DNA of 64,000 nucleotides from Natronospira proteinivora (lineage in GTDB: Bacteria; Pseudomonadota; Gammaproteobacteria; Natronospirales; Natronospiraceae), in contig NZ_JALJYF010000001.1 of assembly GCF_024170465.1 (NCBI RefSeq), positions 1,240,001 to 1,304,000 on the forward strand, given 5' to 3'. This document shows positions 16,923-54,860 of this stretch, piece by piece. How positions within the stretch are numbered: the stretch's first letter is position 1; every line of letters starts with the position of its first letter. Both the position numbers and the translations under genes were made by a program. The notes under the pieces are model-generated. The model was not told the DNA's origin and ran no database searches. It saw only the letters and a list, made by a program, of their open reading frames with translations.

Positions 16923-17858
16923 ATGCTAATGCCGACTTCCCGGCCTGTCCAAAGCAGTTTCCTGGACCAAGTGCTGGACTGCCTCCAGGATCAGTTGATC
17001 GTCATTGACTCAGCCGGCGTCATCCAGTACGTCAATCATGCCTGGCTTCAGTTCGCGCGCGAAAATGGGGGAAACCAACCAGACACCTCATGGCTCAACC
17101 AGAATTATCTGAACGTCTGCGACCAGGCAGCCGCCTCGGGAGACGAGATGGGGCGCAAAGCCGCTGCGGGCATCCGAAAGGTAATCGCCAATCCTGGGGA
17201 GGCCTTCTATTTGGAGTACCCTTGCCACACGCCCAATCAGTACCGATGGTTCATGATGCGGATCACCTCCTTTTCCGAAGGAGGCAAACACTGGTTTGTA
17301 ATTGCCCATAATGACATAACCGAACGCAAGCTGGCGGAAGAGCGGGTGGAAGCACTTTCACGCCAGGACAGCCTGACCGGAATCAGCAATCGACGGAACT
17401 TCACATTCTTCCTGGATCAGGAGTGGCGGCGGTGCCGACGCAATGGCCGTCCTATTGCACTGGCCATGATCGATATTGACCATTTCAAGCTATTCAATGA
17501 TCGATATGGCCATCAAGCGGGTGACGACGCCCTGATTTCGGTGGCTAATTCACTATCGCTGGCTTGCCAGCGGCCCACCGATCATTGCGCCCGTTATGGT
17601 GGTGAGGAGTTCATCATCGTGCTTGGGAACACCGACCTGGAAAGGGCGCGACCGCTGGTGGAGGATTTCCTGGAGCGCATTCGGGAACTGGACATCCCCA
17701 ACGAAGACTCTCCCGACCATCCAATCCTGACTGCAAGCGCGGGCCTTACCAGCCTCGTGCCATCTGCCGAGAATAGCCAGGAAAACCTTGTTGAGTCGGC
17801 CGATAAGCTACTTTATGAAGCCAAGCACCTCGGGCGCGACCAATTGGTGGCTCGCTGA
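16923..17858 (+). CDS. PAS-GGDEF diguanylate cyclase with product-inhibition site
   Basis: Predicted to make cyclic di-GMP from two GTP. A PAS sensory domain covers about residues 12-130 and the GGDEF domain about 140-308. The catalytic signature is GGEEF. Exactly five residues upstream is RPTD, matching the RxxD allosteric inhibition site, so the enzyme should be feedback-controlled. There is no membrane helix, so it is cytoplasmic. A second ATG at 16929 has better spacing from the GGGAG ribosome-binding site and may be the true start. It is one of two diguanylate cyclase genes in the window, while a c-di-GMP riboswitch lies at 54,772-54,860. Confidence 0.93.
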   Translation: MLMPTSRPVQSSFLDQVLDCLQDQLIVIDSAGVIQYVNHAWLQFARENGGNQPDTSWLNQNYLNVCDQAAASGDEMGRKAAAGIRKVIANPGEAFYLEYPCHTPNQYRWFMMRITSFSEGGKHWFVIAHNDITERKLAEERVEALSRQDSLTGISNRRNFTFFLDQEWRRCRRNGRPIALAMIDIDHFKLFNDRYGHQAGDDALISVANSLSLACQRPTDHCARYGGEEFIIVLGNTDLERARPLVEDFLERIRELDIPNEDSPDHPILTASAGLTSLVPSAENSQENLVESADKLLYEAKHLGRDQLVAR

Positions 17859-26205: not shown

Positions 26206-27384
26206 TTATTCGCTCACCACCACCCGGTTTCGACCGTTGCGCTTGGCTCGGTAAAGGGCCGCATCCGCACGGCGCATGGTCTCAGCAGGTGCCTCCCCGG
26301 AACGGGCCATGGCCAGTCCGAAGCTAGCGGTAATGCGCACCGGCTTGCCGCCCCCCTTGCCCCGATACTTGCGATTCCGGCGTGGTCCTCTCAATTTGAA
26401 GTGATTTTCATACAGGTTGCGACGCAATGCTTCCAGGTGCTTGCCGGCCTTTGCCGGGTGGGCGGTACGAAAGACAATGGCAAATTCCTCGCCCCCATAA
26501 CGATAGGCCTTGGCCCCCTGACTGCGCCGGGAAAGGGTGTGTGCCACCCACCTCAGCACCTCATCGCCGGCATCATGGCCCCAGGTGTCATTGAATTTCT
26601 TGAAATGGTCCACATCCACCATGGCAATGGCCAACTGACGCCGTCGCAGTCGATAATCCAGGGCACGTCGGTTTGGCAAGCCGGTCAGCTCGTCAATAAA
26701 AGCCAGGGCCCAGGCATGGGCCAGAAGCCCGCCCCAAAGGGCGAGCACTGCCGTGGCAAAATGCACCACCCAGTTCGCAAGGCTCGGCGTGGTCAGTGTC
26801 ACCGGAAAAATACAGACCAGGCCGATCAATACCGCACCGCGGGTCGGCTCGGGGCGCCAAAGCTGAACGGCCAGCACAATCGCCATGCCAAGCCCGGCAA
26901 CGATAGCCGGTAGCCCCAAATCCAAACCATATAAGGTATGGAAATGAGCTTCCAGGACACTCGGCACCACCGGCGGAAGCTCGTAAAAACCAATCAAGAC
27001 GGCCAACAACACGCAAAGGCCCGTCAGGATTGTGGCTGGGCTGACGGGGCCCCACTCCGGCAGGACGGCAATCACCGTCAAGACAGCGGTCAGTAGCAAT
27101 AGCTGCAGGGGGAACCAACCGGCGCCCGGCAAACTACCGTTGGTGAAAACCAGGAGGTAGAGAGTGATCATCAATGCCAGAGCCGAACTGATACGCCACT
27201 GGCTAAACAGCGCCGCAAGCACCATCCCGAGCACGGCCAGCAGGCCTGCGAGGGATTGCCAAAGGCGATAATCCTCCTGAAGATAATTGCTCAGCTGCGG
27301 GGTGACCCAGAAAACCACCAGCGCTGGCGCCCCCAGCAGGAGCAGCGCCATTATGGTGCGCCGAATAATGGCCGTCAGCATCAT
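26206..27384 (-). CDS. Membrane-bound GGDEF diguanylate cyclase
   Basis: Predicted inner-membrane enzyme making cyclic di-GMP. About seven to eight hydrophobic helices occupy residues 10-220, followed by a GGDEF domain (about 225-390) with intact YRYGGEEF. The four residues expected to form the RxxD inhibition site are SQGA, so product inhibition through this site is lost, unlike the enzyme at 16,923. The membrane part has no recognisable named sensor domain. The gene stands alone between the TonB receptor promoter and a DsbG-like gene. Its output could act on the c-di-GMP riboswitch of the pilus operon in this window (inference). Confidence 0.93.
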   Translation of the reverse strand: MMLTAIIRRTIMALLLLGAPALVVFWVTPQLSNYLQEDYRLWQSLAGLLAVLGMVLAALFSQWRISSALALMITLYLLVFTNGSLPGAGWFPLQLLLLTAVLTVIAVLPEWGPVSPATILTGLCVLLAVLIGFYELPPVVPSVLEAHFHTLYGLDLGLPAIVAGLGMAIVLAVQLWRPEPTRGAVLIGLVCIFPVTLTTPSLANWVVHFATAVLALWGGLLAHAWALAFIDELTGLPNRRALDYRLRRRQLAIAMVDVDHFKKFNDTWGHDAGDEVLRWVAHTLSRRSQGAKAYRYGGEEFAIVFRTAHPAKAGKHLEALRRNLYENHFKLRGPRRNRKYRGKGGGKPVRITASFGLAMARSGEAPAETMRRADAALYRAKRNGRNRVVVSE

Positions 27385-50237: not shown

Positions 50238-50684
50238 TCAGTATTCCACCCGCACCACGATACTGTCCTGATAACTCCCGGGTCGGACATTCTGCCCGCT
50301 GAATATACGGCCGTACACGGAATGGGCTTCGTATTGCTGGTTACCGCTTTCCACCGCCGTATCGCCAGAGCCATCACCCCATACGGTTATCCGATTCACA
50401 TCCACAAAGAGATTGTAATAAAGCTGATCCTCCGGGCCGCTCAGATAGCGATCCTGGTAGGTGCCGTTTCCGGGCTCAAGGACCAGGGTGTATGCCGTGG
50501 CCTCTTCGCATTCGACGACAATCTCGCCGACACTATCTTCGGGCGAAGCGGAGAAGGGGCTGTAATTATCGAAGATCAAGCCTGAGGCGCTTAAGGTGCA
50601 GGCCGCCTGAGACGCATGAACCGGGAGGACTAACAGCCCCGCCAAGGCAAAAAATGCCCAACGATTTCGGTTTTGGGTCTTCAT
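50238..50684 (-). CDS. Spore-coat-U (SCPU) domain protein, Csu-type pilus subunit
   Basis: Predicted secreted pilus subunit of 148 residues. A signal peptide ends near VHASQA, and the mature protein begins ACTLSASGLIFDNYSPFS, the start of a spore-coat-U domain as used by archaic chaperone-usher pilins. The end EYEAHSVYGRIFSGQ-like segment (YEAHSVYGRIF, PGSYQDSIVVRVEY) contains the donor-type beta strand. It overlaps the usher gene by 4 bp and is the last gene of the operon, where Csu systems usually encode a larger two-domain tip adhesin. Here the position may be filled by this single-domain protein (inference). Confidence 0.85.
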   Translation of the reverse strand: MKTQNRNRWAFFALAGLLVLPVHASQAACTLSASGLIFDNYSPFSASPEDSVGEIVVECEEATAYTLVLEPGNGTYQDRYLSGPEDQLYYNLFVDVNRITVWGDGSGDTAVESGNQQYEAHSVYGRIFSGQNVRPGSYQDSIVVRVEY

Positions 50685-53383
50685 TGAGATAACCTGCAGA
50701 CGAGTGGCCCCACTTCCGGAATCGGATCATCGGTTTCAGGATATTCCAGCTGCACGGCACAACGTTCATTCGCCCATTGTGCCTCGAGACGCGCGGATTC
50801 CGGCAGATGGGTGATATAGACCATACCCTCTCGTGCAACCGGATGCTGCTTGTCATGGCCGCTAACCCGAACCCTGGCACCAGCGGGCACCGGCTCACCG
50901 TCGGGTAATTGCAGTGCCACCAACGCGGTTCGGTCGGAGCTCAAGGCAAAGGGTACCACCACACCACTGCGCCGACGCGGGACAACATTGCTCCTCACAC
51001 TGTCTTCGATTCTAAGGGACATGGGGAGTTCGCTCTCGTCCAGGCGAATACGGTTGTTCTCATACGCCCGAAGACCGGGCACCAGGGCCCAGCCACTGGA
51101 ACCGGTATGGGCCACGGGGAGGTTGTCACGATAGACCGGAATGCCCTCCCCCTCCGGGACTTCCACTGCCGCAAAACTGCCAAAGATCCAGTCCGATAGG
51201 AATGGCCGTCCACCAAGGAAAGCAATGCCACCACGTGCCTGGCCCCGATAGGTTTCGGTATCGCCATAGCGGGAAGCATCCAGCCGATAACTGCCGACCC
51301 CGGTGCGCAGGTGGGTATGCAGTTCCTCCCCTTCCAGATCACCACGATAACTCAGGGCTCTAACACCCAGGCCCCCGTCGATGGGTGCATTACGGCGAAT
51401 CATGGTGCGGTGACGCTCACGCTCACCACGCTGTTGCGTTGAATGCGAAAACCCGCTTCTGGCGCCGAAAGGCACAGTGAGGCTAGCCCTGAGTGTGGAC
51501 TCGGCATCCTCCTCGAGGGGATGCATGGCGCTGAACTGAAAGGAGGCATGACGACCAAAACGCAATGAATACCGCCCCGAGGCCAGGCGCTGCGCCTCAC
51601 CGTCCCGCTGGCGTTCTACATAACTGAAGTTGATCGACCCGGCCCGGCCCAGATTAAAGCCGATAAAGGCATTGCTGACACGCCATTGCTCTGCGTCAAT
51701 ATTGGCTTCACCCAGCTGTGTGAAGTAGTCCCGGGTCTCTCTCACGCGCGCGCCGAAACTGACATGACGCCCGATACGCTGCAGGCCGATCTGACCAAGA
51801 AGACCCTCCCGGTCCAGGGCATCGCGGCTCCCGGCCATTGCCAAATCCAGCACCCCGCCCCCTGGCAGCGCGATGTTCGCACCCAGGCCGATGGTATGCC
51901 AGTCATCCGCCGCCTCCACACGCAGTTCGCCCGTCGCCCAGTCAGTGAAGCCATAGCGGTGATTGGCAAAACCGAACGGTGCGCCGTACTCGAGACTTTC
52001 TGTCCCGTAATCCTCGCGGACCTGGCCCATGGAATACTGGTATTCGTGCAACCCCTGCCTGAGAAGCTGGCGGCTGGCGTACAGAGACTGAGTAATCACA
52101 TGTTCCCGCCCTAGCACATCGCGGGTCACCAGGCGCACCTCACCGCTCCCCCGGACAACGGGAATATCATCGACCACAAAGGGCCCGGCGGGAATCTCCT
52201 CCCGATGACGCAGCATCTCGTTGACATATACATCCACAGTGGCCGGTGCGGGCGATTCCGCCGTGATAGAAGGCAGAGGGAAAGTGGTGAACTCCGGCCG
52301 GGTGGAAAAATCCGTACCCCAGCTAACCCCACCGAAGCGGACCGGATTACCCCAGCTGCCGGGATCGCCGAGACTGTCGCCAAGAATGGTCGTGGTCATG
52401 CGATCCGGATTATCAATCTGCAAGGCACTTTCAAGACGGATCCATTCCCGCTCGTCACCCCGGCTGCGTGCAAGCCCGGAGGTGGTGAATACCCCGCGCC
52501 CGCCAAAGATGCCGAGTTCGTAGAATCCGCCTTCCCCGACGGATTCCGTCTGCTGTTCGCCGTTCTGGTAACGACGTTCGGCGAACAGCTCGTAATTAAA
52601 GAAGGCACCGGGAGACGACTGCGCTTCCCGCTGTGGGCGTTCCCTCGGACGCAGGTGGGTTCGGGAAAAGGCGGACGCCGGCGCCTCAATGGAAAGGGCC
52701 ATCTGCCGTTGGTCCAGGTCATAACTGAGTCCCTCTATGGCATCCAGAGGGTGGTATATCGACCCATCCCGGGTTCGCCCGGGCAGACCCTCCACCCGAA
52801 GTCGAAGAGACTCCACGACATGGCTTGCCAAGTAGACAATACCGTCCGGACCCAGCACAGCCCGGACGACTCTGTCATGGGCCTGCTCGTTCACCTCAAC
52901 GGTCAGTAGCAGGTCTTCAAACTCCTCAGGCACGTCGGGGAGACATTGCCCGGGAAACGGATCCCGTGTGTACCCTTCGTCCTCCGGACGTGTCTGGATG
53001 GTTGCGCGGCCAGCATCTGGAAGGAAATTGAACGTGCCACTGTCTACCCAACTGGCAGGAACAAATACTTCTCCCCGATAACGGAAGACGGTAGTGCCAG
53101 GCGCTGAAAGACCCAACTCGACAAGGTCCATCTCGCGAATCAGGAAGCGGCCGCTGATATGCTCCAGGACAAGCAGATAGAAGCCCTGGTCGATGCCATC
53201 CAGCGAGCCACGCAGCCAGAGCTCTTCCACATCGGACTCACACACCGGCTCAACGGGAACCGATCCAACAGACGGCGATACCTCATCAGCCACCGCCTGC
53301 CCGAAAAACGCTGTCAGGCTGAATCCAAACAGGAGTATTCCGGCTGCGCGAACCGTTGCATCATTCCAGGTCCAGCGAGACAT
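50681..53383 (-). CDS. Archaic (Csu-type) fimbrial usher
   Basis: Outer-membrane pore that assembles and secretes pilus subunits. The ATG at 53383 gives about 900 residues with a signal peptide ending near GQAVADE. The N-terminal domain (ELWLRGSLDGIDQGFYLLVLE) is typical of the PapC/CsuD N-terminal region, followed by a long barrel and a beta-sandwich plug. C-terminal domains end with the disulfide pair-like region CAVQLEYPETDDPIPEVGPLVC. It overlaps the chaperone gene by 23 bp and the SCPU gene by 4 bp. The frame is open further upstream to 53488 but that would run through the chaperone gene. Confidence 0.9.
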   Translation of the reverse strand: MSRWTWNDATVRAAGILLFGFSLTAFFGQAVADEVSPSVGSVPVEPVCESDVEELWLRGSLDGIDQGFYLLVLEHISGRFLIREMDLVELGLSAPGTTVFRYRGEVFVPASWVDSGTFNFLPDAGRATIQTRPEDEGYTRDPFPGQCLPDVPEEFEDLLLTVEVNEQAHDRVVRAVLGPDGIVYLASHVVESLRLRVEGLPGRTRDGSIYHPLDAIEGLSYDLDQRQMALSIEAPASAFSRTHLRPRERPQREAQSSPGAFFNYELFAERRYQNGEQQTESVGEGGFYELGIFGGRGVFTTSGLARSRGDEREWIRLESALQIDNPDRMTTTILGDSLGDPGSWGNPVRFGGVSWGTDFSTRPEFTTFPLPSITAESPAPATVDVYVNEMLRHREEIPAGPFVVDDIPVVRGSGEVRLVTRDVLGREHVITQSLYASRQLLRQGLHEYQYSMGQVREDYGTESLEYGAPFGFANHRYGFTDWATGELRVEAADDWHTIGLGANIALPGGGVLDLAMAGSRDALDREGLLGQIGLQRIGRHVSFGARVRETRDYFTQLGEANIDAEQWRVSNAFIGFNLGRAGSINFSYVERQRDGEAQRLASGRYSLRFGRHASFQFSAMHPLEEDAESTLRASLTVPFGARSGFSHSTQQRGERERHRTMIRRNAPIDGGLGVRALSYRGDLEGEELHTHLRTGVGSYRLDASRYGDTETYRGQARGGIAFLGGRPFLSDWIFGSFAAVEVPEGEGIPVYRDNLPVAHTGSSGWALVPGLRAYENNRIRLDESELPMSLRIEDSVRSNVVPRRRSGVVVPFALSSDRTALVALQLPDGEPVPAGARVRVSGHDKQHPVAREGMVYITHLPESARLEAQWANERCAVQLEYPETDDPIPEVGPLVCRLSQ

Positions 53384-54104
53384 TGATGTCGTCGCTACCC
53401 GCACGTCCCCGGACTTCGAGCACCGCGTGGCGCGCCTGTTGCCGATCAACCGGCATGCGCCACTCACGGGCGGCGCCCGGCAGCACATAATTCAATTGAC
53501 GACCCGGCTGGGCAAGAATCCGGTCGTCATCCTGGTGGACAAGGGCCATGCGAGTGAGTCGTGCATGTGCATACCCCTGATTCTCCACAGCAATAACAGC
53601 TTCTCCGGCTGAACGGTCGTAGTGGACAGTCCAGGACAGATCCGCGCTGCCCGGCTCCAGCGGCCCGATGAATACAGGCACACTGATCTGAAGCGCCAGA
53701 CGCAGGCCCATCTCGGGTCCTGTTCGCGCATCCGGTAAGACTTCCTGGAACTCGACCCGGTAGCTCGCCTCCTGCGCACCGGGCAACGAACGCCTCAAAC
53801 CGGTTCGAACCACCTGGGATTCGCCAGGCCCAAGCGCAAAGATGGGGGGCGCAAGCAGCAGATCCTGGCTTTCCGTTAATCGATCCTGACCATCATCCTG
53901 GTCCCAACGATAAACACGGGCATGGATAGTGGTTTCACGATCTCCGGAATTGGACAGCGTAAAGGTACCAATTTCGCGGTCTTCGCCGAGTGTGATGATG
54001 GTCGGAGAAATACTGACGCTCTGGGCACCGGCAATACCCGCGAACAAAAACAATAGCAGCCCGACTCCCATGAGCCGGGCTGCTTTATCGTGTAGACGAA
54101 ACAT
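53361..54104 (-). CDS. Periplasmic pilus chaperone (Csu-type)
   Basis: Periplasmic chaperone with the PapD/CsuC fold that carries pilus subunits to the usher. The ATG at 54104 gives 247 residues; alternative TTG starts upstream are possible. The signal peptide ends near AGIAGAQS, and the first domain begins VSISPTIITLGEDREIGTFTLSNSGD, typical of this class. Later segments such as VVRTGLRR contain the basic motif of the subunit-binding cleft. It overlaps the usher gene by 23 bp, indicating coupling. It lies between the SCPU pilin and the usher, the standard Csu order. Confidence 0.9.
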   Translation of the reverse strand: MFRLHDKAARLMGVGLLLFLFAGIAGAQSVSISPTIITLGEDREIGTFTLSNSGDRETTIHARVYRWDQDDGQDRLTESQDLLLAPPIFALGPGESQVVRTGLRRSLPGAQEASYRVEFQEVLPDARTGPEMGLRLALQISVPVFIGPLEPGSADLSWTVHYDRSAGEAVIAVENQGYAHARLTRMALVHQDDDRILAQPGRQLNYVLPGAAREWRMPVDRQQARHAVLEVRGRAGSDDINVSLDLE

Positions 54105-54122: not shown

Positions 54123-54602
54123 TCAGTAGTAGATCGTGACGTTGATGGTGTCGTCGTAGCTGCCGGCCGGCAGGTCATCCTGGCCCCCGGCAACCTGGCC
54201 ATACACCGTGTGGGACTCGGCAGAGCCGGTGCCTGTATCGGCTACCGTATCGTCGCCCTCGGTATCACCCCAGACATCTCCATGCCCGGCATCCTGATAA
54301 AGGTTGTAATTGAGCTCGTTATCCGAACCATCCGTCATGTGACGCGCACTCACCTCACCGGAGTTACCAGGGTCGAGACCAATTTCATAGCCCGTGTCAC
54401 TGGTACAGGTCACATCAATGGTCGTTGTCTCTTCAACCGGGTCGGCCGAAAGCACGTTGATGGTGCCAAAATCGAGGTCATTGGCGGTCACCACGCAAGA
54501 TGAATCCACCTCGGCACTGACGGTCAAGGTGTCGGTGTCAGCCAGAGCAACATTGGAAACAGTTGCCAGTGCGGCGGAAATTGCAAGCAGGCGATATTTC
54601 AT
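54123..54602 (-). CDS. SCPU-domain major pilin-like subunit, Csu A/B type
   Basis: Predicted main subunit of the archaic pilus. The ATG at 54602 (AGGAGG nine bases upstream) gives 159 residues. A signal peptide ends near NVALADT, and the mature part DTLTVSAEVDSSCVVTANDLDFGTINV is typical of the spore-coat-U pilins, with two cysteines forming a disulfide. It ends TYGQ-like VYGQVAGGQDDLPAGSYDDTINVTIYY. The frame continues open upstream to 54893, through the riboswitch, and is not the true start. The ribosome-binding site sits in a small hairpin (GTTCC/GGAAC). Confidence 0.9.
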   Translation of the reverse strand: MKYRLLAISAALATVSNVALADTDTLTVSAEVDSSCVVTANDLDFGTINVLSADPVEETTTIDVTCTSDTGYEIGLDPGNSGEVSARHMTDGSDNELNYNLYQDAGHGDVWGDTEGDDTVADTGTGSAESHTVYGQVAGGQDDLPAGSYDDTINVTIYY

Positions 54603-54771
54603 AGCGTTCCTCCTGGAACCTTGTCTGTCGACGGGAAAGGACCGTCGCAATTGACAATCATGCCGGCAGGGAACCTGGAAGGCGTAAACTGAAGTGACAC
54701 AGCAACAGGGGAATGAAACACCCCCGGCAACACGTCGTTTCAAAGAAATGAAGACGTGGTGGCTGATGATG

Positions 54772-54860
54772 TGCCGGCAGTTCCGCTGTCCTAGAGCCCA
54801 AGCTCCGTAGACCGGTGACTTTGCGTCCCCGCCTTTCGACGGGTTTGCCATTAGCGGCAA
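54772..54860 (-). ncRNA. c-di-GMP-I (GEMM-I) riboswitch upstream of the pilus operon
   Basis: The minus strand contains the class I cyclic di-GMP aptamer hallmarks in order: AATGGCAAACC, a GAAA tetraloop in CCCGTCGAAAGGCGGGG, the conserved GACGCAAAG, then ACCGGTCTACGGAGC with its GCTC partner and a final AGGACAGCGGAACTGCCGG. The outer stem is TGCCG/CGGCA. The element is 170 nt before the pilin ATG, with leader RNA in between. The TGCCGGCA at the 3' side of the aptamer recurs as the same palindromic octamer at 54661-54668, possibly forming an alternative pairing. A TATGAT box on the minus strand at 54893-54898 could drive it. Confidence 0.9.

Follow-up and report, generated by a model that had tools for sequence, protein, structure and literature searches.

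An aptamer and a pilus operon on the minus strand

The 64,000-nucleotide window (the whole stretch of DNA analysed) carries on its minus strand a c-di-GMP-I aptamer, a leader and four codirectional genes whose reading frames overlap or almost touch. In the order of transcription, the features are the following.

54773..54859, minus strand: c-di-GMP-I aptamer with P2, bearing a GAAA tetraloop, and P3 (RF01051 match and base-pair list)
54772..54859, minus strand: closing stem P1, UGCCG (54859-54855) with CGGCA (54776-54772), five Watson-Crick pairs
54849, minus strand: specificity G, putative equivalent of Vc2 G20
54822, minus strand: stacking A, putative equivalent of Vc2 A47
54777/54776, minus strand: ligand-contact C, putative equivalent of Vc2 C92
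54603..54772, minus strand: leader of 170 nt from aptamer to pilin start, a putative expression platform without an intrinsic terminator
54123..54602, minus strand: first gene, encoding an SCPU-domain pilin of 159 aa that apparently carries a signal peptide (PF05229, E 4.4e-36)
54055..54084, minus strand: strong 13-bp GC-rich hairpin followed by ATTGTTTTTG, with a T-rich tail, early in the chaperone gene and directly after the pilin stop
53361..54104, minus strand: PapD-like periplasmic chaperone, taken to start at the ATG at 54104 (PF00345, PapD_N, E 1.6e-17)
50681..53383, minus strand: outer-membrane usher (PF00577, E 2.5e-25; PF13953, PapC_C, E 3.4e-14)
50238..50684, minus strand: second SCPU-domain subunit, its start overlapping the usher stop (PF05229, E 6.8e-25)

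When the whole window was compared with Rfam using cmscan, RF01051 (c-di-GMP-I, GEMM-I) was the single match at gathering (54859..54773, minus strand), with 80.3 bits (E 3.5e-14) against a gathering score of 35 bits and a gap-free alignment over model positions 1-87 of 87. The aptamer sequence contains GGCAAACC, the GAAA loop, GACGCAAAG and ACCGGTCTA; P1, P3 and P2 with its tetraloop are all present, with one P3 position being C-A. The original prediction had named these GEMM-I hallmarks and the UGCCG/CGGCA stem on the minus strand and had offered an Infernal comparison with RF01051 as the check; the motifs are there and the match is strong. Its coordinates, 54123-54860, do enclose the aptamer, but 54123 is the pilin stop and no part of the aptamer.

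Positions 11, 38 and 83 of the RF01051 model are G, A and C in the window. The pair formed by model positions 12 and 37 is presumably the G21-C46 pair of Vc2, which would make these three residues the equivalents of G20, A47 and C92. A47 is stacked between both guanines of the ligand (PMC9049102), GEMM-I RNAs with G at nucleotide 20 choose c-di-GMP, and an A-to-G change at this nucleotide switches the selectivity of an RNA from cGAMP to c-di-GMP (PMC6456294). With G at the specificity position, c-di-GMP rather than cGAMP would be the expected ligand. Judged by its sequence, the aptamer is canonical and full-length, in agreement with RF01051 in every test made at this level.

The domain matches bring SCPU pilins, a PapD-like chaperone and an usher together in one cluster, the composition of the archaic (Csu-type) chaperone-usher systems. 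An archaic pilus operon behind the aptamer had been predicted, as had a distance of 170 nt to the pilin gene, and both claims agree with the matches to SCPU, PapD_N, Usher/PapC_C and again SCPU and with the gap measured to the ATG at 54602. The usher reading frame opens at 53488; with the start assumed at MSRWTWND (53383), the gene overlaps both neighbours. The pilin shares about 40% identity with the pilins of the nearest operons in the same order. The hairpin at 54084-54055 is possibly an intra-operon attenuator that keeps the pilin in excess over the chaperone and usher. GC-rich hairpins of different sequence also lie about 60 nt past the pilin stop in several SCPU operons of the order (L083, L086, L088 and L090), and in most other SCPU operons no such hairpin was seen.

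The further claim that the window encodes two diguanylate cyclases was likewise confirmed, as GGDEF domains with intact GGEEF motifs occur at 17364-17843 (plus strand) and 26224-26703 (minus strand). Genome-wide there are 37 GGDEF domains, and RF01051 occurs a second time; parts for c-di-GMP signalling are therefore plentiful in this lineage.

The leader and the possible direction of control

Four elements within the leader bear on how an aptamer might act on the pilin gene.

54707..54718, minus strand: candidate anti-Shine-Dalgarno/anti-start strand (UUUCAUUCCCCU), pairing with the SD/AUG in predicted ensembles; tentative
54657..54678, minus strand: candidate anti-aptamer strand (CCAGGUUCC...CCGG..UGAU), pairing with the 5' strand of aptamer P3; tentative
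54605..54618, minus strand: local hairpin GUUCC-AGGA-GGAAC holding the Shine-Dalgarno, from the fold of 54660-54575
54614-54609, minus strand: Shine-Dalgarno AGGAGG, inside the local hairpin

A terminator scan of the minus strand between aptamer and pilin was empty, and an intrinsic terminator was set aside as the platform; Rho-dependent control of the operon is possible. An upstream scan for sigma-70 promoters gave no match. Comparison of alternative pairings with dinucleotide shuffles gave P values between 0.007 and 0.15, depending on the choice of segments. The anti-aptamer pairing (54678-54657 with the P3 strand) was seen in minimum free energy folds of truncated transcripts, and it is kept as tentative only because its P value depends on the segment (0.007 or 0.136). 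The anti-Shine-Dalgarno duplex was no better than shuffles (P 0.146), and an 8-bp UGCCGGCA/UGCCGGCA pairing of aptamer with leader was set aside (P 0.055).

In folds of the full leader, the ribosome-binding site was mostly paired whether the aptamer was left free or enforced. Exposure of this site was also alike in transcripts running into the gene (0.21-0.28 in free against 0.18 in aptamer-constrained ensembles). In transcripts that stop shortly after the start codon, SD/AUG exposure was about 0.2 with the aptamer enforced versus about 0.65 when free; with the aptamer enforced, 54718-54707 is free to pair with the Shine-Dalgarno/AUG region. The predicted folds thus lean weakly toward less translation in the presence of ligand; going by how other chaperone-usher pili behave physiologically, more pilus with ligand would be expected.

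Distribution of aptamers and SCPU genes

RF01051 was present in 67 of 369 genomes sampled from the class and in 36 of 398 from the phylum. PF05229 was found in only two of 62 other RF01051-bearing class genomes, in neither case close to the aptamer, and was absent from the 32 genomes of the phylum set; these searches gave no match in a control genome (the same family search did match in relatives). Of 80 genomes searched for ushers, 12 other aptamer-bearing ones had an usher, none close to an aptamer by coordinates. RF01051 was absent from about 30 other stretches with SCPU operons, among them 24 SCPU loci of named genomes, which came from a pilin-alignment search, and further ones of relatives; three of these SCPU loci (L090, L100 and L105) have little or no upstream DNA, and some genomes are counted under two names. 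Two other genomes of the genus and one other member of the family had no SCPU match, a search of genome contigs with the usher returned no close relative, and the window's leader is kept in no relative. The literature covered, which was partial, yielded no c-di-GMP riboswitch before a chaperone-usher operon. The pairing of aptamer and pilus operon is thus rare.

A second association was found in another family of the same order, where two genomes (G014 and G012) have an aptamer of the c-di-GMP-I clan about 125 nt upstream of a solo SCPU-domain gene. The best family for this aptamer is RF03167 in G014 and RF01051 in G012, and the partial SCPU domain of the solo gene scores 33.7 and 27.5 bits, respectively (cut-off 22.4). 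The promoter region, the aptamer and a GGAGG ribosome-binding site are conserved between the two. This case lends modest independent support to a functional pairing of aptamer and SCPU gene, and the recruitments in the window and in G014/G012 were presumably independent. At L037 2810-3427 and the equivalent stretch of L042, a clan aptamer precedes a solo gene whose SCPU domain is partial; the same two genomes have a complete, aptamer-free SCPU operon at another site.

The second aptamer of the window's own genome (L026 8898-8812, minus strand) lies within a larger element.

L026 8898-8724 (G000:C2:1059897-1059723), minus strand: aptamer-terminator element, with relatives at L027, L028, L031, L033, L040 and L041

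Seven genomes have this element, spread over three of the order's families (f1, f3 and f4). A long terminator hairpin with C-rich loops, ending in a T-rich tract, takes its 5' arm from the 3' half of the aptamer, and RNAalifold, run on an alignment of sequences that we selected, found 30 pairs, nine of them with changes on both sides. A model of the element had strong matches only within the order and two weak ones elsewhere among the 369 class genomes. Since aptamer and terminator hairpin share this half, ligand should keep termination from occurring. No conserved gene follows the element, and several copies are followed by a gene on the other strand, often a convergent one. The element resembles a c-di-GMP ON-switch that permits readthrough or, given these varied neighbours, an RNA that stands alone or acts in antisense; Bdellovibrio has a c-di-GMP aptamer RNA of the stand-alone kind (merRNA; PMC3627812), and antisense-acting riboswitches have been proposed (PMC9943018).

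In two other genomes of the genus (L030 and L029), the second aptamer precedes unrelated genes, which suggests that riboswitch targets change rapidly within the genus. The gene after the second aptamer encodes a small roadblock-like protein, judged by eye, in G001 and, in G002, a small protein that appears to be secreted.

Probable control of the pilus and comparison with known systems

We consider it likely that c-di-GMP is sensed by a canonical riboswitch of the c-di-GMP-I class, located at the transcript's 5' end, which governs in cis how strongly the entire archaic chaperone-usher operon is expressed. We infer this control from position, as the aptamer lies immediately before the operon on its strand, with neither a gene nor a terminator between them. 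The aptamer would bind c-di-GMP in the cell, would share one transcript with the operon, and would by ligand-dependent folding alter access to the ribosome-binding site of the pilin or else Rho-dependent readthrough. Points against control in cis are the lack of an upstream sigma-70 match, the similar ribosome-site exposure of free and aptamer-constrained ensembles in transcripts that run into the gene, the dependence of the shuffle tests on segment choice, and an arrangement conserved neither in the genus nor in other SCPU operons.

It is unlikely that the aptamer RNA instead acts alone, as a sponge or in trans, with the pilus operon served by its own promoter in the 170-nt leader. The Bdellovibrio merRNA (PMC3627812) is a precedent, and no conserved gene follows the other copy in this genome. 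However, no terminator separates aptamer and pilin, and the window copy does not match model R1, derived from the element of the other copy, so that a platform shared by the two copies is also set aside. Even less probable is a remnant of the regulation of a former neighbour, left beside pilus genes that are no longer regulated. That each member of the genus has its second aptamer before a different gene and that two other genomes of the genus lack SCPU pilins would fit such a history, but decay would be expected to lower the score, and the window copy retains 80.3 bits, all ligand-contact positions and a five-pair P1. Sensing of 3',3'-cGAMP or another dinucleotide, as by Geobacter GEMM-Ib RNAs on pilus assembly genes (PMC6456294), is highly improbable, as GEMM-Ib has A at nucleotide 20, where the presumed equivalent in the window is G, and both GGDEF domains of the window carry GGEEF.

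Control in cis by c-di-GMP would put an ordinary riboswitch to unusual use: sensors of this type are well known, and a chaperone-usher pilus was not met as their target in the other genomes or the literature examined. Whether c-di-GMP riboswitches have been recruited at least twice to SCPU-type subunits in one gammaproteobacterial order, as the first direct control of a chaperone-usher pilus by c-di-GMP at the RNA level, we regard as evenly balanced. Chaperone-usher pili are known to follow c-di-GMP levels, and in the literature covered the links run through proteins or have no agent named; a riboswitch in the leader, if true, would connect the second messenger with the attachment organelle by the shortest possible route, and it suggests how readily a known RNA sensor moves onto new genes for surface structures.

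Surface appendages are among the usual targets of the c-di-GMP-I class, and GEMM-Ib RNAs occur on Geobacter pilus genes (PMC6456294, PMC9262584). The GEMM-Ia aptamers Vc2 of Vibrio cholerae and Cd1 of Clostridioides difficile resemble the window aptamer in sequence, three-stem fold, tetraloop, ligand-contact positions and placement in a 5' leader; they differ in the type of target operon, and Cd1 has a terminator, whereas none was found in the window's platform. Geobacter GEMM-Ib (e.g. pilM) shares the aptamer fold and is likewise found on surface-appendage genes, but with A at nucleotide 20 and a type IV pilus, in contrast to the G and the chaperone-usher pilus of the window. The c-di-GMP-I-GGC family (RF03167) belongs to the same clan and is the best family for the solo-SCPU aptamer of G014, whereas the window copy fits RF01051 best. 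In Acinetobacter, c-di-GMP is reported to raise expression of Csu-type pili, though only slightly in one study, which does not use the term riboswitch (PMC10721868, PMC13243610). The archaic Csu and CupE pili, of which Csu has reported c-di-GMP-linked expression, have SCPU-type pilins, a PapD-like chaperone and an usher in common with the predicted pilus of the window; the window operon differs from them in having only four genes, no separate tip adhesin that could be recognised, and an RNA sensor in its leader.
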